Source of the DNA: Haloterrigena turkmenica DSM 5511
GTDB lineage: Archaea > Halobacteriota > Halobacteria > Halobacteriales > Natrialbaceae
NCBI RefSeq assembly: GCF_000025325.1
Contig: NC_013745.1
Location: 186,001-250,000 of the forward strand
Direction: 5' to 3'
Length of the DNA: 64,000 bases
Shown: piece by piece, positions 10,868-39,037 of the stretch
Position numbering within the stretch: the first letter of the stretch is position 1
How the letters are laid out: the number at the start of each line of letters is the position of its first letter
Notes under the pieces: generated by a model
The model's input: only the letters and a program-made list of their open reading frames with translations
Told to the model about the DNA's origin: nothing
Database searches by the model: none
Translations under genes and position numbers: made by a program

Positions 10868-11260
10868 CACTGTCTAGTTTAGCACCTCGGCTGGTGTTTG
10901 TCCGTTGAGTGACTGGTGCGGTCGTTGTGTGTTATAATAGTGTACAAACTGTTCAAGCCATTCTCTGACGCTCGCCTGACTGCCCACCCACGAATTATGG
11001 AAGCGGTCAACTCGCATCTTGAAGGTGTGAAACCACTTTTCGATTAGGTTTCGATCAACGTAGTCGAGCTGACCGCTCAAACCTAATCGAGAGAGCAGTC
11101 AGATAGCCGTAGCCATCGACGAGAAACACGGTGTCTGAGAGATTGTGTTTCTCGGTCAACCGATGCAGGAACGCAGCGGCTGGATCGGTGCCTCGTCGTC
11201 CGAACACTGCGACATCGAGAACGAGCCCATCTTGCGTGTTCCAAGCCGACTGTCTACCGG
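10868..11260 (-). pseudogene. IS6-type transposase remnant with right end
   Basis: The minus strand encodes the C-terminal half of a haloarchaeal IS6-type DDE transposase in two frames: LVLDVAVFGRRGTDPAAAFL ... FLVDGYGYLTAL, then (shifted near 11080) SGQLDYVDRNLIEKWFHTFK ... YYNTQRPHQSLNGQTPAEVL. A one-base insertion separates them. The N-terminal third is missing upstream of about 11260. The terminal repeat GGCACTGTCTAGTTTAGCAC lies just beyond the stop (about 10867-10888). The copy at 52528-53117 is a sister remnant. Confidence 0.8.
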
Positions 11261-11544
11261 TCGCCAGCAACGGCGGCCACGGTGCGGGCGTTCGCCACGA
11301 TCCTGTCCGCTCGGCGAGCCCAATCCCGAAGACGCCGACACCACCTCCCAACCCACTACCCGTTGATAAATCGGCGGTAGCTTGATCGAATGAATAGGCG
11401 ATGTTTGGTTAGAGACACATAAGACGATCTCCTTCTGTCGTTTGTCCGAAACCCTCGGCGTCGCGGCCGCCGGCCTGGTGCACGCTCGAGTTCAAGTTAG
11501 TCCGCTCAGAGGGCGTCGGTCGTCGCAGAAAGGATCAGTGTAGC

Positions 11545-11713
11545 TTACTCATCGTCGCGCGCCTCTTTGTCCCACTGCTCGAGTTCGGTCATGTGCTGTT
11601 CGATTTCGTCCTTCGATGGGAGTTCGGTCGGGTTAACCGAGGAGTTGATATTTCGCTCCTCGCCTCTGGTCCAACTTATCGATTACTGGGATGGTAGCGG
11701 CTGCTGTACCCAT
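11545..11713 (-). pseudogene. Frameshifted small acidic protein
   Basis: An ATG at 11713 starts MGTAAATIPVIDKLDQRRG. In the next frame a coherent acidic end follows: EERNINSSVNPTELPSKDE, then HMTELEQWDKEARDDE, with the stop at 11545-11547. The two join across a shift at about 11660. The expected product is about 57 residues; the family was not recognised. A related start (minus-strand ATG at about 21620, reading MGTATSTVL, with similar upstream bases) suggests a second, more decayed copy. Confidence 0.4.
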
Positions 11714-12495
11714 GACCGTTGTTTTTGCTCGAGTCGACCCCACCCACCCCGCCGCGCTCGCTGTGAGATCAGACTGACGGCCGATCTAGATCGCCCAACC
11801 GCTGTGACGTCGGACCGGGAAGAGGTAGCAATTCTTGCGACGCCGTTTTCTTATTTGCGATTCGTTTACAGGTGAAACGTGCAGCAGCGTCGTCGAAGTT
11901 GCCGAGAACAAGCACCCTTGTGAAGAACTACCCTATCGGAACAAATCCGTCTATAGTACTAGTATACCAGATCGTTCCGATATGGTAGTCTTTGACACGG
12001 TGGAACTAGTTTACGAGATCGACGCCTCTCCGCTGCCGCGATCCACCATATAGGAGGGGCTCGCTGATCAGCAGTCGAGACTCGTACGAAGGATTCAGCA
12101 CTAACGGGCTAATCTCGGCATGAGAAGAGGGCGCAGATCGGTCGCAGTAATCGCCGAGATGTTATCATCACGAGGAGGACAAAATAGCAGAGCGACCGAC
12201 TGTCGGCTTCTATGAAAAACACGACATAGGAAGACCAAGAAGCTGATCGCTCAAGCCGAAGTGTACCTCGACGCCGACGGCGACAGCGGATACAAAACCG
12301 CCGACGGGAAATAGAACACAGCCTAGCCGTGACTGAAGCAACTCTCACTACTATCAACTCAGCGATCAAGTGGTTGTACCGCCGAGAGAACTACAAGAAG
12401 TTTACCTAGGGAATCAGACATCTACTTTTTGACAGCAGTCAAGCAAACAGGGTCAGAGTAGTAATCTGTACTTCCTGCTTCCTGCCATTCTCAGC
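11714..12495. other. Decayed region without supported genes
   Basis: Only short coding-like scraps are visible on the plus strand, such as KLIAQAEVYLDADGDSGYKT (about 12240-12300) and INSAIKWLYRRENYKKF ending in a stop at about 12410. They are in different frames and broken by stops. This looks like eroded plasmid or virus genes; none can be named. Confidence 0.4.
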
Positions 12496-12660
12496 TCATT
12501 TGTCCCTTCCGGTCGGGATGTCAATCTTCCATACCTGTTCAATACGCTGCGCGACCTTGAGCAGCGTAGATCCATCGCTGAGTTAATCAGCGCGGATGCG
12601 CAGCTGGGTGGCGATCTCTCGGTCTTCACCCTTCTCGCGAATAATGTTTTCATCGCTCAT
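12496..12660 (-). pseudogene. Small protein with in-frame stop
   Basis: From the ATG at 12660 the frame reads MSDENIIREKGEDREIATQL and RIRAD, meets TAA (12583-12585), and continues in the same frame with LSDGSTLLKVAQRIEQVWKI ... GRDK to the stop at 12496-12498. The charged, helical 54-residue product is antitoxin-sized, but I do not recognise its family. It overlaps the end of the preceding small gene by 11 bp, as in an operon. Confidence 0.4.
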
Positions 12661-12832
12661 GTCTCAGTTCCCTTCCGTTTGTGACCCCGAGCGTTCCGTG
12701 CCGGTCATGTAGATAATATCGAGACGAATCTACTTGGATCCACTGTGCATTACCACCATCATCTGCAGTCTGCAAGTTGTCACCGAAGTCGAAGTATTCC
12801 AGCTCGGTATGATCGTGGACCCTCGACCGCAC
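12650..12832 (-). CDS. Short hypothetical protein
   Basis: The 60-residue frame contains LEYFDFGDNLQTADDGGNAQ followed by WIQVD, loosely similar to the short haloarchaeal DUF7331-type proteins that end in an AWIQSD-like motif. The start and family are uncertain. It overlaps the next small gene downstream and may be a working partner or another relic. Confidence 0.3.
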   Translation of the reverse strand: MRSRVHDHTELEYFDFGDNLQTADDGGNAQWIQVDSSRYYLHDRHGTLGVTNGRELRHER

Positions 12833-12908
12833 AGCTGATCACCACGCCTCGTCCGGCCTGTGGATTACCAGCCGGCTCCGGATCGGGATGTAGACATGAC
12901 CGATGTTT

Positions 12909-13043
12909 TTACTCGATCACCACAGGCTCGCCGCAAACAGGGCAGACGGACCCATTCTTTTTACTTTTGATTTCAGACTGTTTACCCGTCCATCCACAGA
13001 TTGGACACTGTACTGGATCGGATCGAGACACAGGACACAGGGG
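12909..13043 (-). pseudogene. Zinc-ribbon fragment
   Basis: The minus strand reads DPVQCPICGWTGKQSEIKSK, then NGSVCPVCGEPVVIE and a stop at 12909-12911. This is a clear CxxC/CxxC zinc ribbon of about 40 residues. There is no ATG; only a GTG about six codons before the first CxxC could start it, and an in-frame stop lies at 13044-13046. It is either a minimal zinc-ribbon protein or the end of a lost gene. Confidence 0.4.
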
Positions 13044-13149
13044 TCATTCGTCGCCGGGCCAAAAAGCGTAGTGTCTGGATCGAACACCTGTTGATACTCG
13101 ACGAGTTCTGCTCACTACGTGCGGCTACTGAACGCGAGCTGGGTAACCG

Positions 13150-13656
13150 ATGAGCCGTTCGAGTCAGTCTCGGCTCGCTGTCTCAAGACAGGCTGGCGAT
13201 CGGTCCGAGACAGTCGTTCTCGAAGCAGTTCCAGGATTTCGCTATGTTCCGGATTCGGAAGCGAGCCACTACGACGCGATCGCCGAGGAGCTCATCGAAC
13301 CGAGCGAGCAGCTGCCGTTCGTCGGCATCGTCGTCCTTGAGGAAGGGACGGCGGTCGAGATCAAGTCCGTCTCCGTCGTCTACGGCCAGCAGCAGCGACG
13401 GGGCCGGTTCCAGCCACGGCGGGGTCAGCACGAGGCACTACTCGAGTCCGGGGGTGTCTACCTGTTCGCGATCTGTGCGCCCCACGATCGCGACCTGATC
13501 GCCATGAAGGTCGTCCCCGCGAGACAGGTCGATCATCTCATCGACGGCGTTACGAACGGCTGGCGATCGGCGGGCGAAGACCGCAGCGAGGAGTACGTTC
13601 AGTTCAGTTGGGCTCGCGTCTTCAACCCCGACGAGATTCTGGAGGGATCGCGATGA
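13150..13656 (+). CDS. Provirus-type protein, possible PD-(D/E)XK nuclease fold
   Basis: The 168-residue protein has a strand-turn-strand VGIVVLEEGTAVEIKSVSVV whose E-x-K fits the second half of a PD-(D/E)XK nuclease site. It continues with GRFQPRRGQHEALLESGGVY and LFAICAPHD, a pattern seen in restriction-like and Holliday-junction-like folds. The family is common in haloarchaeal integrated elements but uncharacterised. It overlaps the next gene by 4 bp (ATGA). The enzymatic role is inference only. Confidence 0.5.
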   Translation: MSRSSQSRLAVSRQAGDRSETVVLEAVPGFRYVPDSEASHYDAIAEELIEPSEQLPFVGIVVLEEGTAVEIKSVSVVYGQQQRRGRFQPRRGQHEALLESGGVYLFAICAPHDRDLIAMKVVPARQVDHLIDGVTNGWRSAGEDRSEEYVQFSWARVFNPDEILEGSR

Positions 13657-13940
13657 GCGTCGATCGTGACGATCGCGACCTCGAGGCCGAGCTGGTGAGC
13701 GCAGCTGCTGGTCAGGTCGGGATTCCAGTCGACGCGATTTGCGTGGTGTGGGCGAACGCGGATCAAGCGCGCCGATCCAATAGTGATGGGGCAGCACCCG
13801 CAGATCGATACGGCCAGCCTCAAGGCGACGGGCTGCACGTCGTTCAAGCACGTCTGTCACCGTGCGGTGGCGCGACGTGGTGGAACCCGGTAGCGGTTCT
13901 GACCAGTCTACTCGAGCGAGAGCGTGAGCGGGGTGAGTAG
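13653..13940 (+). CDS. Small provirus-type hypothetical protein
   Basis: The 95-residue product starts at the ATG at 13653 that overlaps the stop of the preceding gene (ATGA), indicating translational coupling. The acidic N-terminus (MSVDRDDRDLEAELVSAAAG) and a WANADQARR segment are followed by a variable end (ATWWNPVAVLTSLLERERER). No motif is recognised. The third gene of the set begins one base after its stop. Confidence 0.5.
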   Translation: MSVDRDDRDLEAELVSAAAGQVGIPVDAICVVWANADQARRSNSDGAAPADRYGQPQGDGLHVVQARLSPCGGATWWNPVAVLTSLLERERERGE

Positions 13941-13941
13941 G

Positions 13942-15306
13942 GTGTCACAAGTCGAGACGACACCGCACGAGATCGAGGGCCGGTAGAAGTGGCCCGACTG
14001 GGGCCGCGGTCCGTACGACGCGCCCTCGTCAGTGATGCTCGGTCCACTCTTCGAAGGCTACCTCGAGTTGGACGTCGAGATCGACGGCGAGCCGTGGCAC
14101 CTGAAGGTCAGTTACAGCAAGTCCGGCTTCGCGCCGCGGCTGTCAGACGGGATCAACGCGGAGCGACTGTACGAATGGGATATCGTGGGCCGTGGGCGCG
14201 GCGAGCGGAAGGCGTCGTACAACATCTCCCCGCGGTTCCCGAATATGCGTCACTGGGAGAGCGGTGACCCGATACAGCTCCCGTGGGAGAATCAAGTCGG
14301 CGCCGTCGACGTCGAGTTCCACACCAGTAACATCGAACCCGAGCGCGGTCTCGAGTTGCTGCCGGAGTTCTACGCAGCCGTGTTCGAGTACGCAGAGGGG
14401 CGAGTCCATCCCGAGTACTTTCGGACGGACCCGCACTCAGCGAGCCGCATGTGGGCGTACAAGCGGTACGTACGGATCCGTCGCGAGTGGGCGGAAAAGC
14501 TCTCGTCGGCCGGGGTCCTCCAGAAGGTTGCGCACTATCTCTCCGACCTCGAGGGAGTGAAAGCGGAACTCCATATCGACAACGAAGAGGTAGTCAACAA
14601 CCAGAACCGGCTGTTTCTGAATCCCGCGTCAGCGAGTAAGCTGTTGCCGGGCCACACCTACGGGCGAAAGTTCGAGATCTACCAGCTGGCGGATCCGAAC
14701 GCGGTCTCGAAAGATCACCCGTCGTACCACCCGAAGATATAGGTACTGGTGAACAAGTCGATGAACGACAACGAGGCATGGGCGTGGGCCGATCGCCACG
14801 AGGTGACCGAGCAGATCGAGGAAACGCTACTGAACGCGCTCCACTGGGAAGACATTCCGCTCGGTCTCGACGGTAACGGCGTGTACGTCCCAGACGATCA
14901 CTTCGACGCTGTGGCCCGTGACGACCCAGTCGAACTCTACGAGGATCCCACACCGCGCCTCGAGGCGAAGTCGGACCATCTGTTGATGACGACGCTGCGG
15001 GACATGGGCGAGACGGCCCGCGACGTCACAGAGACGGTCGCAACCGACGGCGGCACAACAGTCGACAGTCTCGCCGACCAGCTTGGGAAACACCCCGCGA
15101 CGATCTACCGCGCGATCGAAGATCTCGGCGATGTCCTCGAGCTCGACCAGGGCGACGTGTCGTTTCGCGCTCGGAAGTACCGCGAGGAGTTGCGGGCGCT
15201 CGTCGAGTCGGCCGAGTACGCGATCGAGAGCTACGCCGATCGGATGCAGCACCTCATGGGGCTGGCCGAAAACCACACCTTATGGCGAAAAACAACTACC
15301 CCATAA
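13942..15306 (+). pseudogene. DUF7845-like HTH protein interrupted by two in-frame TAG codons
   Basis: A GTG at 13942 opens VSQVETTPHEIEGR, a TAG follows at 13984-13986, and the frame goes on with KWPDWGRGPYDAPSSVMLGP and a long conserved domain (LELDVEIDGEPWHLKVSYSK). A second TAG at 14740-14742 sits after HPSYHPKI, and the same frame continues VLVNKSMNDNEAWAWADRHE to a helix-turn-helix (TTVDSLADQLGKHPATIYRA). All other codons are sense, and no frameshift is needed up to about 15270. The C-terminus then looks cut short (ENHTLWRKTTTP). Either the gene is decaying by point nonsense mutation or the TAGs are read through. It follows 13653-13940 in one operon. Confidence 0.6.
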
Positions 15307-15472
15307 CATACGGGTTAGACGTTCTCCGTGTTGAATAATAGCATAGATATCCACTGCCGTAATCTACCTAATTCGCTGATAACTACCAATCTGTGTTGGC
15401 CCTATATATTACACATTCTCTTCCTATATATTTTCAATCTATTTCTTCATATTTTTTGTTAGTATAGAAAAA

Positions 15473-15480
15473 TTTAATAA
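15473..15480 (+). promoter_or_regulatory. Probable TATA box of the halocin-like gene
   Basis: TTTAATAA lies 28-35 bases before the ATG at 15508 in a very AT-rich 150-bp upstream region. That spacing would place the transcript start within a few bases of the start codon, giving a nearly leaderless mRNA as is common in haloarchaea. Confidence 0.45.
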
Positions 15481-15507
15481 TGATGAAGAGAAAAGTGTAG
15501 CTGCGTA

Positions 15508-16452
15508 ATGTCGGAAGATAATACAGACGATAACAGTAACTTGAATCGCCGTAAAGTACTCCAATCTTTCGGTGCAGCAAGTATCGCTACGTTCGGAATA
15601 GGGACTGCTTCTGCCTCTAGAGGGCTACGTCGAACGGCAGATAGCAATAACCCCGAGTTACTTGCGGAGTCGGAGTTGAAGAGTGAGTACGAATATGCTA
15701 TGAATGCCGCTGAGGCACAGGAACTTCGTAATACACTTCATGAAAAAGGATTCTCAGCGGACCTTGAAAATAGCGTTGCAATCAAGGTTAACGTGGATGA
15801 ACTCCAACGAACAATAGAGGAATTCGACACCATCAGTGAAGCGGAACAGTTCAACGACCTTAATCCCGTTAGCTTGTTTGTTCCCTTCAGAACTGAAAGC
15901 AATACGGAAATTGCTCTTCTCAATGTGCTTGTCACTGACGATCCGGAAGGAAACCAGGATCGGATAGGTGCTAGTGGCTGGGCGTTCGAAATTAACCCAA
16001 CGATTAATGAAGACGAGGGGACGGTCACATCTCAAGTTGATGTATTGGCGACCAGTCCCGAAACCGACGGAACATTCGCTGCCCAGAGCCAAAGCACATC
16101 ATCAGCCGGAACTGTGACTATTGATCAGTTCACTGATGAAACAGACCTAGGCGAATTAACGGCGAATGAGCCTGCTTCGGACAGAGTTACGTCACAAGAT
16201 GTCAACATCGACGTTGACATCCCTGACGTTATCGGGGCGACGTTCTGTATGGCCGTGCTCAGTAAAATTTGCGACAAGTATGGAGATAGAGTCGCTCACA
16301 GTCAGTGTCTCAACATCTGTTTCAAGACAGGTGCGCCGCACGTCATTGTAGGCTGTTCAGCATTTTGTGTAGCAGCCGTTGAAGTTATCCAAGCGTACGG
16401 TTGCAAACCTTCGGCTAAGTGGCTCTGCGGTGCACTCGGACTGAGCGCTTAA
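15508..16452 (+). CDS. Halocin C8-like microhalocin precursor (Tat-exported, Cys-rich C-terminus)
   Basis: The 314-residue protein begins with a Tat signal (NRRKVLQSFGAASIATFGIG ... ASA, residues about 13-37). A soluble acidic domain follows (about 40-235). The C-terminal block of about 75 residues has eight cysteines (247, 255, 267, 271, 283, 287, 299, 307) and alternates hydrophobic stretches (ATFCMAVLSKIC, GCSAFCVAAVEVIQ). This order matches halocin C8, where the N-terminal part of the precursor acts as immunity protein and the Cys-rich end is released as the peptide antibiotic; that peptide has ten Cys, this one eight. The likely cut is near 231-243. Two membrane PH-domain genes follow. 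The gene is much richer in AT than its flanks, suggesting recent transfer. Confidence 0.7.
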   Translation: MSEDNTDDNSNLNRRKVLQSFGAASIATFGIGTASASRGLRRTADSNNPELLAESELKSEYEYAMNAAEAQELRNTLHEKGFSADLENSVAIKVNVDELQRTIEEFDTISEAEQFNDLNPVSLFVPFRTESNTEIALLNVLVTDDPEGNQDRIGASGWAFEINPTINEDEGTVTSQVDVLATSPETDGTFAAQSQSTSSAGTVTIDQFTDETDLGELTANEPASDRVTSQDVNIDVDIPDVIGATFCMAVLSKICDKYGDRVAHSQCLNICFKTGAPHVIVGCSAFCVAAVEVIQAYGCKPSAKWLCGALGLSA

Positions 16453-16616
16453 CGTCGGCAATAAAAAGCAAATTTTTGTAGCGCGACAACGCAAAACGTC
16501 GGATTCAGCACTCGTAAGTTGTAAACGCGATGGTTATACTATCATCGGTAACGTAATCCCCAATCGTAAAATGGTATCAAGCCAGATGTATTAGATGAAA
16601 TTCAAACGATATCACT

Positions 16617-17075
16617 ATGAAATTGTATTTACAAAATCGAGTACGATACCTTTGGTTTCTCCAGTTAATGCTAGTTGATGTATTCGTCAGTGGTATTTTG
16701 TGGATTGGAAGTGAGCAGTATGAGAGTCTCCCTTCCTGGATACCATTTGGTATGTTCGTCTTGATCGTCTGTATCGGTGCTCCAAACATACTGTTGCGAT
16801 ACCGCTCATGGCGGTTCGACATTGACGATAGAGGGGTCACTATCGAGTACGGGGTCATTCGGAAGCGTCATACATTCGTTCCGATGGACCGCATTCAGCA
16901 CGTCGATACAAATCAAACCCTGTTGGATCGATTGTTCGGTCTCTCGCGGGTCGTAATCCACACGGCAAGTGCATTTGAGTCTGATTTGACAATTCCGGGT
17001 CTGTGTCCCGAACAGACAATCAAAATTCGAAATAAAATTTTTGCGAAACAATCGTCAGACGGTGATGTTGTGTGA
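16617..17075 (+). CDS. YdbS-like membrane protein with bacterial PH domain (bPH_2)
   Basis: The 152-residue protein has two N-terminal membrane helices (YLWFLQLMLVDVFVSGILWI and WIPFGMFVLIVCIGAPNILL). One bPH_2 domain follows (about 65-145: WRFDIDDRGVTIEYGVIRKR, then FVPMDRIQHVDTNQTLLDRL and a FGLSRVVIHTAS strand). In bacteria YdbS/YdbT pairs contribute to resistance to peptide antibiotics, and bPH_2 proteins take part in immunity to or export of leaderless bacteriocins. It is 164 bp downstream of the halocin-like gene, and its stop overlaps the GTG start of the YdbT-like gene (GTGA). I infer a role in immunity or secretion. Confidence 0.75.
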   Translation: MKLYLQNRVRYLWFLQLMLVDVFVSGILWIGSEQYESLPSWIPFGMFVLIVCIGAPNILLRYRSWRFDIDDRGVTIEYGVIRKRHTFVPMDRIQHVDTNQTLLDRLFGLSRVVIHTASAFESDLTIPGLCPEQTIKIRNKIFAKQSSDGDVV

Positions 17076-18511
17076 ATCTACATCCATATTCCATAGTACG
17101 GCGAGCGATGGAGGAGGCCTCCTCATCCGTAAGTGCATTCGCCGGTCTATTAGTATTCTTGTACATAACTAACAATATAAATCGTCTTTTTGAGTTGATT
17201 TTGATATTTATAATTCTTACTATAGTTGATATTATTATGGAATTTATCCGCTGGCACCGGTTTTCTTACACAATTGAGAATGGACACTTGCAGATACAGT
17301 CCGGACTTTTCAACAGACAACACCGAACGATTCCGCTAGATCGGATACAGCAGGTCGATATCATACAAGACGGGCTCAGTAGTGTATTCGGGTTAGCAAT
17401 CGTGAGATGTGAGACCGCAGGAACCAAGGTCGAGAGCGAAATCGAACTACGATACGTGGGAAAAGATCAAGCCAACTCGATTCGAAAGCGTCTCGGGGAG
17501 ACGACCTCGACAGCAACGGCCAATTCTGACCCCACCGTGCTATACCAAGCATCGCCTCGGTCGCTCGCCCTGCGGAGCTTGACTACTTTACATTCGAAAT
17601 ATGTGTTGCTCGGGCTTGTCACCATTGTAATCGGTCTCTCAGAACTCCTGTCATCCTCCTTGGACCGTATCTCGGTTCCGTCCGTGATGGTCGGCGGTCC
17701 CGTCATAATCGCTGATGGGATCCTCGTTGTCGGAATTATCCTCGTCATAGCATGGTCCGTCGGCGCCGTCGTGACCATGTTCAAATACTACGATTTGACT
17801 GTCACGTGGGCGGATAAAACTCTCAGAAGCAGTGGGGGACTACTGTACGATTTCACTACCGAGATTCCCCTCGAAAAGGTTCAGATGATGCGGATATCGG
17901 CAAATCTGTTACACCGAGTGTTTGGCTACGCGGAACTAACAGTAGCATCCGCGGGGATAGCAGAACATAAACCCTGGCCATTCAGAAAACCGCTGATCCC
18001 GCTTGATACTCGGAGTACCATTGAGACTGTCGCACGACAAATCCTTGAGTACCGGGACGGTTCGTTACAGCGGCCACCAAAGCGGATGCGCCGACGGTAT
18101 ATTATACGGTATGCGATGGCTATCTGTATTATCACTGCCGTCTCCTGTATCGGCGGACTACTGTGGTCTGGGTACATTAGCCTCTTCTGTGCGTGGCCGC
18201 TGGTATTTCTTCCAGTAGGTCCAGTCCTCGCACATCTTACCTATAGGAGCCGCGGTATCGAACTACAGAACGATACTCTGGTTCTCAGACGAGGTGTAGT
18301 TCGGCAGCACACGTACGTGGTTCCCATTGAACGAGTCCAGACCGTCACACTGTCTCAATCTGTGTTTCAGCGCCGTCTAAGTCTAGCAACAGTCTCTATC
18401 GACACAGCGGCACCCTTTCTTTCAGTCAGGCTGCGCGCGGTGGATTTCGACGCCCAGACTATCGAATCTATTTATCAGGATATAAAACAAATGACTGTTG
18501 ACACTACTTAA
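17072..18511 (+). CDS. YdbT-like membrane protein with three PH (bPH_2) domains
   Basis: The 479-residue protein starts at a GTG overlapping the YdbS-like stop. Three pairs of membrane helices alternate with three bPH_2 domains at about 65-145 (RTIPLDRIQQVDIIQDGLSS), 250-325 (TEIPLEKVQMMRISANLLHR) and 395-470 (VVPIERVQTVTLSQSVFQRR). Each has the family core P-(L/I)-x-(R/K)-(I/V)-Q. The order and length match bacterial YdbT. With the 16617 gene it probably forms a membrane complex that shields the producer from, or helps export, the halocin-like peptide. No other candidate immunity gene is seen next to the precursor, apart from the precursor's own N-terminal domain. Confidence 0.78.
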   Translation: MNLHPYSIVRRAMEEASSSVSAFAGLLVFLYITNNINRLFELILIFIILTIVDIIMEFIRWHRFSYTIENGHLQIQSGLFNRQHRTIPLDRIQQVDIIQDGLSSVFGLAIVRCETAGTKVESEIELRYVGKDQANSIRKRLGETTSTATANSDPTVLYQASPRSLALRSLTTLHSKYVLLGLVTIVIGLSELLSSSLDRISVPSVMVGGPVIIADGILVVGIILVIAWSVGAVVTMFKYYDLTVTWADKTLRSSGGLLYDFTTEIPLEKVQMMRISANLLHRVFGYAELTVASAGIAEHKPWPFRKPLIPLDTRSTIETVARQILEYRDGSLQRPPKRMRRRYIIRYAMAICIITAVSCIGGLLWSGYISLFCAWPLVFLPVGPVLAHLTYRSRGIELQNDTLVLRRGVVRQHTYVVPIERVQTVTLSQSVFQRRLSLATVSIDTAAPFLSVRLRAVDFDAQTIESIYQDIKQMTVDTT

Positions 18512-18538
18512 TTGAACAAACCACTTCATGAAGTTTCG

Positions 18539-18790
18539 TTATCTTGTCCCATCAACATCTTCCAGCAGCGTTACTACTACTTCAAAACCGTGGCTGGTAT
18601 AGACGATGGTTTGATGACCTTTCTCAGCGGGTTGCCCCTTCTCAAGGGGGTTGTACTGATTCAATAGGGATAAAACGTCTTGGTTGACCAGCTATAGCAC
18701 TCCATGTTCAAAAGGAACGCTTCAGTACAGTACCAGCAGAGCGTTTTCCCGATCAGGTCGGGACTGTCGCATTCCTCAGGGAGTACCGTG
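18539..18790 (-). pseudogene. Frameshifted zinc-finger protein remnant
   Basis: Two minus-strand pieces read as one damaged gene: ECDSPDLIGKTLCWYCTEAF (zinc-finger-like CxxC after an earlier Cys) in one frame, and NQDVLSLLNQYNPLEKGQPA ... TIVYTSHGFEVVVTLLEDVD with a stop at 18539-18541 in another. The junction is near 18690. The family was not recognised. It marks the right edge of the AT-rich halocin island. Confidence 0.35.
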
Positions 18791-19044
18791 GCTTCAGGGA
18801 GTTCGCCATAGTCCCGCACTCAAGTTCGACCGGAACGTCTCAGTCACAGTCCTCGAGGAAGAGATAGAGGAACACGAACGCCGGTACCAACCCACTAGTT
18901 TCGGTCACTCTTCAATTGTATGAATGTGCTTACCTAGACTGACCAACGCTACTAATATGATGGATATAATAGATATAGTCTGGACACCTTCGCCCCTCCG
19001 AGCGGGTTCGAACATTCGGTTGTGGGAGGTGTCCGTATCGAACC

Positions 19045-19173
19045 ATGTCCAACGACACTACCACGAGCTCCCTGTCCAAGGACACTCGAGACGCCCTCTT
19101 CAACCTCAAGCGTTCTTCCTCAGAGCCGTATGAGGATGTCATCCTCCGAGAAGTCTCGAGTAACGATAATTAG
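19045..19173 (+). CDS. Short ribbon-helix-helix-type antitoxin-like protein
   Basis: The 42-residue product MSNDTTTSSLSKDTRDALFN LKRSSSEPYEDVILREVSSNDN resembles the N-terminal ribbon-helix-helix of VapB-like haloarchaeal antitoxins, where beta-strand T-T-x-x-L is followed by helices containing DALFxLK and YEDVILR. The usual C-terminal toxin-binding tail is very short, and no toxin gene is adjacent. It may be an orphan antitoxin or the stump of one. Confidence 0.5.
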   Translation: MSNDTTTSSLSKDTRDALFNLKRSSSEPYEDVILREVSSNDN

Positions 19174-19375
19174 CCAATCGAATACCATTCTCCGAGGGCA
19201 CGATCGGGGACGAAGACCATGTGGTTCCTTGTCCCATTCCTCAACCTGTCCAATTCGTCCCTCTCGCACGGTTGTTATTGGACTCAGTCATTCGTGTCGT
19301 GGCTGCAGTGGAATGTTCTACTGTGGCCCCTGCCCCCGTGAGACCTTCGGAGAACGTAGTTACACTACTCTATCA

Positions 19376-19693
19376 TGAGCGCCAAACGAAGATACTCCGG
19401 TCGATGTCGGCACCGACGCTGAACAAAGCCCTGAAGAAATCGCTAACCAGGCCACTGCAGACCTTGAAAACAGCACGATTACCAGAGCGACCATTCACCA
19501 TGCCCACGACGGGCTTTACTTTGAACTTGAGAACAGCCTTGGGGTCAAGTCACTCCGTGAACTAACCACACTAATTACGGGATTCGCAGCAGCTCTCTTT
19601 GATGAACCCTCGTTCCGTGACGGCCATCACATGAACCGGAACGGATCGGCTATGGCAATGGTCGAACTCGACCCGTATGATTTTGAACCCTAG
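19376..19693 (+). pseudogene. Hypothetical protein with disrupted start
   Basis: A coherent acidic frame of about 105 residues (EDTPVDVGTDAEQSPEEIAN ... LYFELENSLGVKSLRELTTL ... MVELDPYDFEP) ends at 19691-19693. The frame has no start codon after the TGA at 19376-19378. An ATG one base earlier (19375) is out of frame, so a small deletion has probably separated the start from the body. The family was not recognised; the setting is plasmid or provirus. Confidence 0.45.
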
Positions 19694-19747
19694 AGGAATT
19701 GGAAGTGGTGTTCCGAAAGCGTGTTATCGGAAACCTCGAGCGGGTGA

Positions 19748-19951
19748 TCTAGTCAGGCGGATTTCTCTCCGGTGGACGTCGGGAACGACCCGACCTTAGC
19801 CACTTCTTCGCACATTGTGATCGCCAAGCGGTACGAGCGTTGTATTGAGGACAGTTTGCCGGACGAAGCTGAACGGATTGAGAACGCGCCGACTCTCATG
19901 CGGCAGAAACAGATTGCCAAGGAGATCGCGAAGGAGCACTTCAATTCATGA
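19748..19951 (+). pseudogene. Hypothetical protein fragment
   Basis: An open frame without a start codon encodes ADFSPVDVGNDPTLATSSHI, then VIAKRYERCIEDSLPDEAER and a helical end (QKQIAKEIAKEHFNS). Its stop overlaps the ATG of the next gene (ATGA), so the original operon arrangement is still visible. The 5' end appears lost. Confidence 0.4.
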
Positions 19952-20198
19952 CGAATCAGGACAAGCTTGAGGGCCGTATTGAAGCTCTCCAGCAGAAGAA
20001 AGAGGCGTTGAGAATACGGCCCTTGGCGCGAAGTACGAACAGCAACTCGAGGACCTTCATGAAGAACGGCCTTCAAGTAATGCATTGTCGGCCACGCAAC
20101 GGCAAGAGCAACTTGAGGCACTTCGCCAGAAGGCCTTCGAGCACACGGCGCTCGCCTCGAGATACATGGAACAGATTGCGGAACTTGAGGACAACTAG
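19948..20198 (+). pseudogene. Frameshifted coiled-coil protein
   Basis: From the ATG at 19948 the frame reads MTNQDKLEGRIEALQQKKEA. After a one-base shift near 20012 the next frame continues as ALGAKYEQQLEDLHEERPSS ... QRQEQLEALRQKAFEHTALA ... EQIAELEDN to the TAG at 20196-20198. The product would be an 83-residue coiled coil of the kind found in virus or plasmid operons. It is coupled to the upstream fragment. Confidence 0.45.
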
Positions 20199-20365
20199 TT
20201 CATAAGTCCGGATTCTCCGGGAGCGCGTTCGGAGGATGGAACTCGAGCAGTCGGTTCACCACCAACCGACAGGGACAGGGGGGCGTTTGGCTGACGTCGT
20301 CCTCCTTTGAACGGCCACTCTCCCGCAACACTCCCGGAGAGTCCGACCAGCTACCCTCTAAGACA

Positions 20366-20608
20366 ATGCCAAGCTACGACGATAGCGACTTTCCCGACCT
20401 ACTCGAGACGGTGAATTGGGCACCGGCTTACCGCGTTGTCAACTGTCTCGGGTGTACGTTTCGAATAGCCAATCGCCAGCTGATCTAACTCGCCAAAGAC
20501 GGGGTTGTGGAAGTCCTAGACCCAGAGAACGACGCAAGAGGTATTCCTGATAACGAAACCACTAGTCGGCCCGATATCTGCTGCCGCCTAGCTGACGAGA
20601 CAGATTAA
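20366..20608 (+). pseudogene. Small protein with in-frame TAA
   Basis: MPSYDDSDFPDLLETVNWAP continues to NCLGCTFRIANRQLI, then TAA, then in the same frame LAKDGVVEVLDPENDARGIP ... DICCRLADETD and TAA at 20606-20608. One nonsense mutation explains the break in this 80-codon gene. A CxxC pair is visible before the stop. The family was not recognised. Confidence 0.4.
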
Positions 20609-20648
20609 GGATCTGGGATAATACAGATTCGGTCTATTCTGTCTCTAC

Positions 20649-20889
20649 ATGGCCAAAGCTGCCACTCGAGGAACAAACACTAAGTCTATAGGGGAAACGA
20701 GAAGAGCCTTGTTCCCTGCCGGGGGGTTGGGGGACTCTTGGTTCACAGAAAGGGCGCTGCCGGTTCCACGGCGGGGCTTCCACGGGACCGGGTGAGACGT
20801 CCCACTTGGAAGACAACGACTACGCAGAGGACAAACCAGGCGGTGGACCACCGATCAGTTCGAGGCGAGCAACGAGAGCGGCCCTGTAG
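20649..20889 (+). pseudogene. HGG-motif protein remnant (phage terminase small-subunit type)
   Basis: An ATG at 20649 opens MAKAATRGTNTKS. After a shift near 20690 the frame reads GKREEPCSLPGGWGT, then RCRFHGGASTGPG and a truncated end (GGGPPISSRRATRAAL, stop 20887-20889). The Cys-x-x-x-GWGT and CRFHGGASTGP motifs are those of the HGG-motif proteins that occupy the terminase small-subunit position in haloarchaeal proviruses. This supports a viral origin for part of the 13-22 kb debris. Confidence 0.5.
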
Positions 20890-21051
20890 TCCTTCGTTTG
20901 AGGACTTATAGCAAGTTTCACCGCTATAGACGTAGCTGGCTCTCTCGAGCGGTAGGATACGAGACAGAACGTCCCCCTGCTATGTCCCTATTTTGTGCCG
21001 AGAATCACTTAAAGAGAAACCCATGCAACCCAGCTTTGCATAGGTTCGGTT

Positions 21052-21480
21052 GGCTCTGTTGAAACCCTATTTTTCCGATTGATTCTAGTCTGAAACAGCT
21101 GGCCACTGAAGAGTGCGAGTATATCACACCCATCTGATCGTCACGCCGGGTGTTTGTCCGAGGGGCTCCGTACGCAAAACTATTGTAGGTAGGGAGAGAA
21201 ATCGAAGATATGAACACCACTACTACAACGAAGCGCCTTCCATCACGGGTAGCATGGGTGTTGGGAAGTGTTTCCCTCGTACTTGCGGTCACCGCTTCTG
21301 AGTATCTTGGAGCGGGTCCTATCGGGGCGGTTGTCGGAACAGCTGTTCTGATGTTAGTTTTGGCACGCGTCTATAAATTTGCATCCTCCTAAGGCACCGT
21401 CTATTTCTGCTAGACACACGCTCTGTACTGTCCAATTGAGGGTGTGAAAATTATCGACTTCTGAGGGTTCCAACAGAGCC
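21052..21480. mobile_element. 429-bp non-autonomous transposable element with passenger gene
   Basis: Inverted ends of 17 bp (21052-21068 and 21464-21480; GGCTCTGTTGAAACCCT against GGCTCTGTTGGAACCCT on the other strand) are flanked by a perfect 8-bp direct repeat GTTCGGTT (21044-21051 and 21481-21488). That is the classic mark of transposition. There is no transposase inside; the interior carries the 60-residue membrane peptide gene. Similar ends occur at 29069 and 32422. Confidence 0.75.
21210..21392 (+). CDS. 60-residue membrane peptide inside the 429-bp element
   Basis: The product has a short Thr-rich N-terminus, then two hydrophobic helices (VAWVLGSVSLVLAVTASEYL and GAVVGTAVLMLVLARVY) and a short end. 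Function is unknown. It is the only intact frame within the transposable element, and its codon use looks genic, so it is either a passenger gene or remains of a host gene captured between two IS ends. Confidence 0.5.
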   Translation: MNTTTTTKRLPSRVAWVLGSVSLVLAVTASEYLGAGPIGAVVGTAVLMLVLARVYKFASS

Positions 21481-21488
21481 GTTCGGTT

Positions 21489-21956
21489 CGATATATGCAG
21501 CGGCCTATGCAACTCTACTGTAGCCGAGTTGCGGCTGTGGAGTATGCGCCTCAGAGAACTCGTTATAGCTCCATCTTGTGACCCCGTGGATTATCAGGAC
21601 GGTGCTGGTCGCCGTACCCATGACTGTTATTTCGCGCTAATTTAGCCGACTCGAGCGGGCAGCTGCGCTCAGTTTCCGGAGACAACTGAGTCGTTGGGTG
21701 ACGATGTCCTCGGCAGATATCCCGTACCCGAGAGGGGCATCAATCTAAGAGGTGAAAGAGAATACACACAGCGAGCGGTTGTAAGCAACGTACCGTTATT
21801 AGTTCGTATACCGCTCGATCGGTTCGTCGTTGGTTCACTCTATAGACTCCTCGAGAGGCCACAGGAAAGACACCAGTTGTCCACGGAGAAGTCATACAGG
21901 AGCAGCGCGGAAATCACAAGATAAGATAGTTCAGAACATCCATGAGAGGCATTCAA
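21489..21956. other. Decayed stretch without supported genes
   Basis: No intact gene is visible between the 429-bp element and the virus-type gene at 21957. A minus-strand start at about 21620 (MGTATSTVL) with bases like those at 11711 hints at a relic of the same small gene, but the frame is soon lost. Confidence 0.3.
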
Positions 21957-22633
21957 ATGCAAAGATGCCTCGAGATCGTTGACTATACGATACGGAAGGT
22001 CACGCCGAACATCAAACGAGCGAACGTCAAAGGCGGCGCACAGCCCGTTCGTGAGAAGGAGTTTACGCCGATATCGGGACCGCTATCGAACTCGGTGCGC
22101 TAATTGATGCCGAGGACGCCGTTCTCGTTCCCGGGGGTGATCGGGTCGTCGACGTCAACGGCAACGTCTACAATCGGGGTGTCGACTACGAACTGAGTCG
22201 GAACGAGTTGACGATCACGGCGCTCGCAGATGGCACGATCTTGAATGGTACAGAGTGCCTGATCGACTACGAATACAAAGCTGTCGGGAGCTTCGAGACT
22301 GGTCACTATTTTGGTGATCCACGTGAGGAGGAGGTCGAAACGATCCCGCAACTGACCAGTGAGCGTGGCTGTTTGCAGGCTGCGAAGGCGATCGTCGATA
22401 CGGGTTCGGAGGCTCGGAGCGAGGCCGACGTCTCACTCCCGCCATCGGTCCCGGTCGATCTCTCCCTCGTCGAGCAGTTGGGCCTCGAGGACGTCTCAGG
22501 CGATGCAATGGCAATCTATGAGTTACAGGACTCGCTCGAGGGGTTACAGTTGCGTCTCGGTGATCGAACTCGGGTTCGTGACGCGGTTCAGCAGATGCAG
22601 CGTCAGCTGGCCGCGAACAGCGAGCGAGTGTGA
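21957..22633 (+). pseudogene. Frameshifted virus structural-type protein
   Basis: From the ATG at 21957 the frame reads MQRCLEIVDYTIRKVTPNIK and GGAQPVREKEFTPI. After a shift near 22075 it goes on as IGTAIELGALIDAEDAVLVP, GDRVVDVNGNVYNRGVDYEL and a long acidic C-terminus (SLVEQLGLEDVSGDAMAIYE ... QQMQRQLAANSERV). The strand-rich middle resembles phage tail or baseplate proteins. A second fragment of this gene is found at 27018, on the other side of the protease gene. Confidence 0.5.
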
Positions 22634-22674
22634 CCTAGTTTCCGGGCCAATTAGCACAGAATTACGGTAGGATC

Positions 22675-25600
22675 TTATGTTGCTCTCCCTATCTTTATAT
22701 CAACACCTGAAAGTTTCTCTGTTTGACCGTTATCTTGACCTCCCATATCTTCTGTCATACATCCGTTTTCGCCGTTCACATTTACGGTTGCGGATGGTTC
22801 GACACTATTTTCGTTACAATGTAGGCTGCCCCAAATACGAGCGCTTGATCCGTTCTCCAGTATAAATTCGTCTACCTCTATCTTGCCGTGAATGACAAGT
22901 GAGCTGTTCTCTTCAACAATCAACTCCTTGGTTTCCATTCCACCACGCACAGTTAGGGCTGTATCTGGAAGGACCGTGATAGATTCGGATGCTTCAATCC
23001 CTCCTCTAGCAGTTACCGAACCTTGAGTTGCCGTGACGGTTCCAGTGGCTTCTACACCACCATTGAATTGAGTGTCACGAGCAATCACATTGTGGCCTTC
23101 AGCGTGACCGTTAACACGGCCCTCCTGAATAACTATTGTACTACCATTACCACCTTCGAAACCTCCGTTCATATCACCACGAGCGACGAACATTGATTCC
23201 TTTCCAATTTCCTGTTTTCCGTTCAATCGCCTAGATTCAACCTGTATCTGTCCTATTTGAACTGCACTCTGAATGTCAGCTTTTGTGCGACTATCTATTT
23301 CATCTAGGTGCTGTGGAAGAGAAGAAGCGACGGAAATCGAAAGTGGTTGTGTAGTGTTCGTGAACCCCTGTGAATCAGCAACCGTGAGCGCAGGCTTTAC
23401 TTTTCCAGTCTGTGTGTACTGGTGTGTTGCCGTTGGATCAGCGGTAGTTTCGTCTACTGTGCCATCGCCGTCAAAGTCCCACCGATAGGCTGATACGCTC
23501 GAATCGTCATATGATCCACTTGCGTCAAAGTGAACAGGAGTACCTGCTTTCACCAGCGAGGCATTCGCTGTCATCTTTGGAGTTGGCGATCGATTTCCAA
23601 CTACAACAGCATTAGTCGCCGTTGTCTCTACGGAATTGCCAGCGTCGTCAACGGCTCTTACAGCTACGCTAAGGGTCCCCCGATACGGGCCCAACTCCAG
23701 AGTCGTCGTATAGTTTCCGCTATTTGCTTTTGTAAGTGGGACGTGCTCCCAGTTGGATTCATTGGCAAACGGTGTTGTTGACGGAACTCCGTTACTATCT
23801 CGTTTGGCGGTATAGAGTGTGACGTTCTGGACAGAGCTCCTTGTGTCCGACGTTGAGACGGTGACATTAAGCGATCCAGTAGGGACTACGTTCGTTCTTC
23901 CGTGCGACTCAAAGGAGATACTAGGAACAGTTGGTGGTCGTGTGTCCGAGGTGTCAGTCGTGGCCTTGAACGTGGTGACGGTATTATTCGACAGCGGTGA
24001 CATGCCATGTTGGTCCTGGACACGGAGTCGGACCGAACTGATATTTCTTCTGGCTAATGAAATCGGAACATCTGCTGAATTCTCGGTGAAAGAGTGAGTC
24101 TTATCGCCATTTATCCAGAGATCATACTGTTCTGATGGGCTGTCACTGATTACGTAACCATTCGGCGGCTGACCGACTGTTGGAAATACTGTGCTATTAA
24201 AGTGATGCTCTGAGAGCGACCAGCGCATCAACTTTGACCGGAAGGGATGCTTCTTTACCGCTGTTGTTAGTGACGAGTCATTGTCGAATTCTTGGATGAC
24301 CTGCTGTGGCGTTGCGCTCCATTCGGTGTATCCGAATGATCCTTCTGCGAAGGCATCATGGTAGTGTGCGATAGTTGGCGAGACATAGATAGTCTGATTG
24401 AATATTGTTCCCAGACCAGCAGGCATATATGACTGATATATCGGCACATTATCGAAGTCATCAGCTGCGAGTGTAGCAGAGTACGTTTCGTCAGGCGTCC
24501 CTTTGTAGTATCGAACGGTGTGTGTGTTCAAATCGTCTACATCAATACTGACTGTGTGGAGACCAGATACATGCTGCTTGGTATGCTTTAGGTGATAAAC
24601 CGTCGATGTATTGTATGCTTTCTCACCTTGAGGAGCCGTAATCACGCGACGGACCGCGTAGTTCATGTCCGAAGTCGGACTGATCCGAACTGCAGCTGTT
24701 GGCGCATTTTCAGCGACTACACGTTCATCAATAGGCCCACTATCCAATGTGGCGTTCACGATCACTGTTCGGTTCTGTAATTCATCACCGCTCTGTGGGA
24801 GTGTGCCAGTATCGACCGTCTGGGTGACAGTCTGAGATTCGTCTAAGATAATTGTCTCGAGCCCATCAATATACTCTGATTTCGCTGTGATCACCGGCTG
24901 TCCATTGTGACGGCCTGACGAAACCGCGACATACTCACCCGGTTGTTCAATGGCAAAATGAGCTGTAGAGCCGTCAAACTCTTTTGGACCATATACTCTA
25001 TTCGTCTTAGTGTGCATGAGTGTAATACGATCACCATCTATCGATCCGAGTCCGTGTTTTTTGACCGTTACCTGCCGTTTCGGAACGTATCCAAAGATCG
25101 CAGTCGTATCGCCCACATGAAGTCTCCCAGAGTGAGGTTTTGACAGGTCATTAGTGGTGTTGACTGTCAATGCCAAACTAGCTGTAGAACCTGGTTTGAG
25201 AGTCATTGACGATCGATTCACCGATACAGTCCCGGGATCGGACGACTGAATGGCCACTGCCTTCGCAGAAACATTCACTTGTCGACGCTCTGAGCCCAAA
25301 TTCCGGACAGTAACCGTTTTCGTCACTGTTTCCCCGGCAGGAAATTGTCCGAAGTCGATAGTCGTCGGATCAATTACAATGTCGGGACTGAGTGCTGCCG
25401 TCACGTTGAGTTCGCCACTTCCCTGCGTGTAGATGTCCTGTGAACCGAGGGAATCAGTTGTCGACGTAATCGCATTCTTCACCCGCTGCTCGCTCCATCC
25501 GGGGTGTTTCTCATGGAGAAGCGCGGCGGTTCCAGCTACTATCGGAGTTGAGAATGATGTCCCCTCAGTCGAACGGTATCCAGTAGTACGAGCATCTGGT

Positions 25601-34339: not shown

Positions 34340-35524
34340 CTACGGTAGCGCCGTCCGGAGATCCTCGCAGAGGTCATCGGCGTCTTCGAGACCAACGGAT
34401 ACCCGGACCAACGTCTCGGGAATCTCCGCTGACTCCTCACTGCGACTGAACTCGTCGGGGATCATTAGTGACGGTACCTCAACAAGGCTCTCGACCCCAC
34501 CGAGACTAGCTCCCGGCGTGAATACCTCAAGCCCCTCGATGAACGCCTCAAGTTCGAGGAGTGCGCCATCAAACTCGAAGGACAGCATCCCGCTGTACCC
34601 CGACATCTGTTCACTCGCAAGATCGTGTTGCGGGTGGCTCTCGAGACCTGGATAGTGGACACGAGCGACCCGATCGTGGCTTTCGAGGAACCGGGCAACT
34701 GCCATCGCGTTCTGCTCGTGATGTTCCATCCGCGCGGGCAGCGTCTTGATGCCTCGCGTAACGAGGTAGCAGTCGAACGGCGAAAGCATATTCCCAAGCC
34801 CGACCCGCTGCGCGAACGCTAATTGCTCGAAAACGTCACTGTCGTCGGTGATAACGGCACCGCCGATCGAGTCGGAGTGCCCGTTGAGATACTTGGTGGT
34901 GCTGTGAATGACAATGTCAGCACCCAGTTCGAGTGGGGCTTGGCAGTACGGACTCGCAAAGGTACTGTCCACGCTGAACAGAGCAGCATGGTCATCAGCG
35001 ATGTCGGCTATCGTTTGGATATCGCACAACCTCATCAAGGGGTTCGACGGTGTTTCTGCCCAGATCAAGTCAGTGTCCGCGTTGACTGCATCGGCGACGT
35101 TGTCGGGGTCACGGGCGTCAACAAAGTCGATGTCAACACCGAGATGTCCGGCCATGCGTTCCGTGAGCAGTTTTTCGGTCCCGCTATAGATGGAGTCCGA
35201 GGAGACGACGTGGCCTCCCGGGGGGACCAGCGACAGCATCGTCGTCGATGTAGCGGCCATTCCGGAGGCGAACGCCAACCCATGCTCGCCGCCTTCGAGG
35301 CGGGCTAACTGCTCTTCGAGGGCTGCCCGCGTCGGATTGCTCTCGCGCGAATAATCGTGGTCATTGGCGTCCTCCCCGCTGGCCCACTCGAACGTAGTCG
35401 AAAGGTGGATCGGCGGGACGACATCGTTCGTTCCATCCCTGTGAGGATGCGTTTCGGTTTCAGCTGCGCCGACTGCGATGGTTGCGAATCGATTCCTGTC
35501 GAACTGGCTATTGTGTCGTGTCAT
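34340..35524 (-). CDS. Cystathionine gamma-synthase/gamma-lyase family PLP enzyme
   Basis: The 394-residue enzyme belongs to the Cys/Met-metabolism PLP family. It has PPIHLSTTFEW at the N-terminus, the SGMAATS phosphate loop, WAETPSNPLMRL, the PLP-binding Lys in HSTTKYLNGHSD and a C-terminal LVRVSVGLED. The reaction is gamma-replacement or gamma-elimination on homoserine esters or cystathionine, linking cysteine and methionine metabolism; synthase and lyase cannot be separated by eye. The gene is complete and stands alone. Confidence 0.9.
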   Translation of the reverse strand: MTRHNSQFDRNRFATIAVGAAETETHPHRDGTNDVVPPIHLSTTFEWASGEDANDHDYSRESNPTRAALEEQLARLEGGEHGLAFASGMAATSTTMLSLVPPGGHVVSSDSIYSGTEKLLTERMAGHLGVDIDFVDARDPDNVADAVNADTDLIWAETPSNPLMRLCDIQTIADIADDHAALFSVDSTFASPYCQAPLELGADIVIHSTTKYLNGHSDSIGGAVITDDSDVFEQLAFAQRVGLGNMLSPFDCYLVTRGIKTLPARMEHHEQNAMAVARFLESHDRVARVHYPGLESHPQHDLASEQMSGYSGMLSFEFDGALLELEAFIEGLEVFTPGASLGGVESLVEVPSLMIPDEFSRSEESAEIPETLVRVSVGLEDADDLCEDLRTALP

Positions 35525-38531: not shown

Positions 38532-39037
38532 ATGATATCTGATACATCCGCCACCCTCTCCCCAAAGAAGCCGACAAATCCAGGAAAACTTGTCAGAGAA
38601 ATAAGCACCGGCGCAACATCCTGAGTGCACTGGTAAACGCTGAGAGCGACGCTCTGAACACATTAGAAGTCCGGGAGCGAGCCAACGTCCATAGCGGGAG
38701 TATGAATCACTACCTCGTTACCCTCACCGAGTAGGGCATCCTTGAAGACACGGGGGAGCGAGAGTACAGCCAAGGCGGCGGACGGAAAGCCTGCGTCTGG
38801 CGGCTCAGCGAGAAAGAAGAGACATTCGTCGAAGAGTACTCGAATGCACTTACTCCGCCAAAAGGGGCTGCAACAGTGGAGTGCATGATAGCACTGGAAA
38901 ATTGGATTGAAGATTTCGAAGATAAAACACGCAAACGCCGGAAAACGATCGTTGGGATACTGAAAGTGATCGCCGAATCCCAAGATGAACAGACCCGACA
39001 GCAGGTCACAGAGATTGTGACCGAGACCGACCTATAA
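38532..39037 (+). pseudogene. Winged-helix protein with frameshift and in-frame TAG
   Basis: From the ATG at 38532 the frame reads MISDTSATLSPKKPTNPGKL. After a shift near 38600 it reads HRRNILSALVNAESDALNTL, VRERANVHSGSMNHYLVTLT and E, followed by TAG at 38732-38734. The same frame resumes with GILEDTGEREYSQGGGRKAC and VWRLSEKEE, then a helical C-terminus to the TAA at 39035-39037. The layout is an MarR/ArsR-type winged helix plus dimerisation helices. Its 3' end overlaps the convergent gene by 6 bp. Confidence 0.5.

Follow-up and report, generated by a model that had tools for sequence, protein, structure and literature searches.

A reading frame of Haloterrigena turkmenica DSM 5511 that is interrupted twice by the same stop codon raises the question whether the gene is decaying or whether TAG is decoded there as an amino acid. 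The frame lies in a window of 64,000 nucleotides (the whole stretch of DNA that was analysed), which comprises positions 186001-250000 of contig C3 (413,648 bp) in a genome of 5,440,782 bp on seven contigs, among them C1 with 3,889,038 bp. Contig C3 is presumably plasmid pHTUR02. The type-strain genome report names pHTUR02 among the plasmids of H. turkmenica and gives six plasmids and 174 pseudogenes in total (PMC3035258). As is laid out below, the frame is almost certainly a plasmid-borne version of a DUF7845 gene of haloarchaea that was inactivated only recently, by ordinary decay.

On the plus strand a single frame opens with GTG 13942 and closes with TAA 15304-15306; it has exactly two internal stops, TAG 13984 and TAG 14740, as a preliminary description of this DNA had stated. 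The description also reported family-like protein on both sides of each TAG, and these flanks were identified as Pfam DUF7845 (PF25227), which was matched by the piece between the TAGs (E 2.2e-73) and by the start of the piece following 14740 (E 1.2e-14). In the own genome, frame-aware searching gave a single match that spans model positions 1-314 of 315 and has two TAG codons within; elsewhere in the genome only one weak piece below the cut-off (model positions 2-44) was detected. Based on Pfam and on its relatives, 13942-15269 (plus strand) is a pseudogene of a DUF7845 protein with a C-terminal HTH-like stretch, and the HTH-type profile matches in this part all remained under their own cut-offs. 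The gene is homologous to an intact family, and its product is broken by two TAG codons and by loss of the C-terminus, while frameshifts are absent between 13942 and 15269, which bears out the earlier claim of an unshifted frame up to about 15270. Two ORFs lie upstream on the same strand. The one at 13150-13656 has a counterpart alongside the DUF7845 gene of Haloterrigena salina, with 88% identity across its full length of 168 aa, and the small one at 13608-13940 shares 56% identity with the corresponding place in H. salina (109 of 110 aa aligned). The DUF7845 frame of H. salina (L035) harbors a 30-codon tandem duplication just ahead of the HTH-like part, which could be an assembly artefact, as the same frame contains unresolved bases.

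To identify the residues that the TAGs replace, 61 relatives outside the own genome were collected by tblastn in fetched loci; eight of these with frames below 500 aa were set aside, leaving 53 aligned rows, and three own-genome loci were likewise kept out of the alignment. Some of the 53 rows probably represent the same genome via two routes (e.g. L005 and L035), so that not every row is independent. At the first TAG (13984-13986) the relatives carry Trp in 41 of 53 rows, Leu in nine, Tyr in two and Phe in one, and all 41 Trp rows use TGG. The column of the second TAG (14740-14742) holds Glu in 43 of 53 rows, Gly in seven, Cys in one and a gap in two, and the Glu rows printed have GAG or GAA. 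Both TGG to TAG and GAG to TAG are single base changes. As the comparison shows, two point mutations turned a Trp and a Glu codon into TAG, and translation from 13942 would, as follows from the sequence, end after 14 residues. The two positions are unrelated, as expected for plain decay. Neither column contains a stop in any of the 53 aligned relatives; two broken copies outside the alignment have one at a Trp position near the start, possibly in another column than that of 13984.

The preliminary description regarded the frame as otherwise intact, which does not hold. Homology ends at 15269, about 92 codons are lost, 15270-15306 is an unrelated tail, and three codons are deleted in frame relative to the relatives at about 14299-14307, the exact place depending on the codon alignment. 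The breakpoint at 15269/15270 was defined by DNA and protein comparison: DNA homology ends exactly at 15269 in seven of seven relatives compared, and the closest intact relative, a protein of 539 aa, matches the window up to its residue 447. Truncation of the 3' end, which had been named beforehand as a sign of decay, is therefore present. Comparison with the relatives thus shows that the last ~92 codons were lost through a rearrangement or deletion at 15269. Relocation of the lost C-terminus within the genome was rejected, since a genome search with the last 92 aa of the closest relative gave a best E of only 0.55. A scan of 11000-24000 for repeats at the break yielded short imperfect ones only and no clear insertion ends, and the 25 bases directly after it occur once in the window. 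The GC content is about 0.6 before 15269 and falls to 0.42-0.54 beyond.

Several further observations concern the borders of this segment. The stretch 15270-19500 with its GC content of 0.42-0.54 adjoins the DUF7845 segment of ~0.6 and is possibly a later insertion. It includes an open ORF at 15508-16452 (314 aa), which by eye starts with a signal of the twin-arginine type and carries a halocin C8-like domain at its C-terminus (TIGR04449, 25.0 bits, cut-off 24). Counting the own genome, four of 37 genomes gave a match to this ORF, the nearest other being 33% identical, and no relative was found in a viral contig collection. On the left side, the match to a plasmid of Haloterrigena sp. KLK7 (L137) covers 12910-13178 at 95% and goes no further, that of L005 begins at 13138, and L004 has an isolated match at 13112-13153. 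The short stretch 13112-13178, common to different contexts, is possibly where the DUF7845 segment has its left boundary.

Damage beyond the stops and the truncation was assessed at columns that show at least 95% conservation across 40 Trp-type relatives, with L005 omitted as a duplicate of L035. Without counting the two stops, the window gene carries nine missense changes at such columns, compared with none in the close relatives L003, L036 and L007 and one each in L035, L004 and L034; the more divergent rows L014, L015, L060, L063 and L016 have 9 to 23. Together with the three-codon loss, these changes would fit a loss of constraint. Other results point away from decay: the dN/dS of the window gene versus L003, its nearest relative, is 0.088, equal to that of L003 versus L004, and its private changes (14 replacement, the two stops included, to 24 silent) do not differ significantly from those of L003 (8 to 24; P 0.31). 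Given the low dN/dS and the non-significant excess of private replacements, the decay has to be of recent date, with young lesions in a gene that had been constrained until not long ago.

The constraint that is still visible overall, along with in-frame starts after each stop, would also suit shorter proteins made by restart at GTG 14032 (236 aa) and GTG 14749 (185 aa). Restart at GTG 14032 is conceivable, yet we would expect it to give fragments only. At the second stop the DUF7845 domain breaks off, around profile position 260 of 315, conserved residues are altered in both pieces, and the aligned relatives are free of stops at both places, all of which makes the use of such short proteins highly unlikely. 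Equally unlikely are sequencing or assembly errors as the origin of the TAGs. The stops are single substitutions in one public genome, but the genome report gives a coverage of 6.9x Sanger and 19.9x pyrosequence (PMC3035258), and the truncation and the changes at conserved sites point in the same direction as the stops.

In favor of recoding or suppression by a pyrrolysine-like system or an amber suppressor tRNA, with a protein made through both stops, are the identity of the two interruptions and the well-conserved flanking protein with its low dN/dS. The search for pylS and an amber suppressor tRNA that had been proposed was carried out, and neither was found. Rfam detected 46 tRNAs in the genome, and no CTA anticodon occurs among the 45 whose anticodon is read by ARAGORN; the remaining one (L098) is by eye an Asn GTT tRNA with an intron. 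This set is incomplete, as Trp CCA, Gln CTG, Pro CGG and Arg CCG were not seen and intron-bearing tRNAs may be missed, which leaves a small doubt on decay. When the genome was scanned for the pattern of a CTA anticodon with a T-arm after it, four places came up, one on contig C2 and three that, judging by how far they lie from tRNA-Ala or other RNA genes, are near rRNA operons. These were rejected as tRNAs: ARAGORN recognizes none of the four, nor does Rfam at the place on C2, the one to which it was applied. The best PylS match in the genome reached 32.3 bits against a cut-off of 178.15, which was exceeded in one of 14 control genomes. Demonstrated stop readthrough in archaea consists of selenocysteine and pyrrolysine, as set out in a review on archaeal recoding (PMC8211752).

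The use of TAG as a normal stop, for which a count had also been suggested, was determined in 29 gene-like ORFs of the window picked by length and GC3. TAG terminates nine of these, one being a piece of the pseudogene itself, and seven of the other eight hold a Pfam domain above cut-off; at 34340-35524 a PLP-enzyme domain reaches residue 393 of 394 and is followed by TAG. Full-length genes of the window thus end in TAG. In a 20-kb ribosomal-protein stretch (L135) TAG ends two of 25 gene-like ORFs, which both lie on the minus strand and may be spurious, and none of the 18 on the plus strand, a point that speaks against plain decay. Against recoding stand the normal use of TAG as a stop in full-length genes, the lack of PylS and of an amber tRNA among those found, the replacement of Trp and Glu, the absence of a stop at either column in the relatives, and a C-terminus that is lost anyway. 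We therefore consider decoding of both TAGs extremely improbable, and the same applies to its variant in which a missed intron-bearing suppressor tRNA reads TAG and the cell continues to produce a shortened DUF7845 protein.

That both stops are identical had been taken as a hint of recoding, which our counts do not support. Among 157 one-base routes to a stop in the aligned region of L003, 104 lead to TAG, 36 to TAA and 17 to TGA, and the probability that two independent stops are both TAG is ~0.44 on equal routes and 0.29 on transitions alone. As TAG is the commonest one-step stop in this gene, two TAGs are unremarkable. Broken or truncated copies also occur at eight of the 61 related loci and at another plasmid locus, L136. 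Five of these nine copies (L058, L062, L064, L067 and L136) carry in-frame stops, six TAG and six TGA; frame changes occur in L049, L062, L064, L067 and L136, and L065, L066 and L068 are fragments only. The broken copies L064, L065, L068 and L136 are located on plasmids. DUF7845-family copies, several of them plasmid-borne, thus break often and by either stop, TAG or TGA. Viral copies of the gene were also considered and dismissed, as the scan of the viral contig collection gave no relative.

A second pseudogene lies at 38532-39037 on the plus strand, for which an in-frame TAG had been described. TAG 38732 exists and stands at a Trp codon (TGG) of the intact relative L124; it is out of frame with ATG 38532, as four bases near the 5' end are missing compared with L124. 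The intact L124 has 169 codons and itself ends in TAG, and the protein was matched in three of 61 genomes searched, the own one included. The 38532 gene likewise underwent ordinary decay. The proposal of decaying genes hit by point mutations is thus supported by TAGs at Trp and Glu codons, by the lack of a detected suppressor tRNA or PylS, and by the truncated 3' end. Since most one-base routes to a stop in the DUF7845 gene give TAG, it is to be expected that TAG recurs in broken genes, and such recurrence does not hint at a changed code. This closes a recoding lead in a haloarchaeon.

Compared with the DUF7845 (PF25227) proteins of Natrialbaceae, the 13942 gene is alike in covering the whole Pfam model (338.8 bits) with an identity of up to 94%, whereas it differs by its two TAGs, the three-codon deletion and the ~92 missing C-terminal codons. 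With the pyrrolysine genes of methanogens it shares an in-frame TAG; in contrast to these, no PylS above the cut-off accompanies it, the residues replaced are unrelated and the gene is truncated. It resembles ordinary pseudogenes of haloarchaeal replicons in its nonsense mutations and truncation, and nothing of note sets it apart from them.
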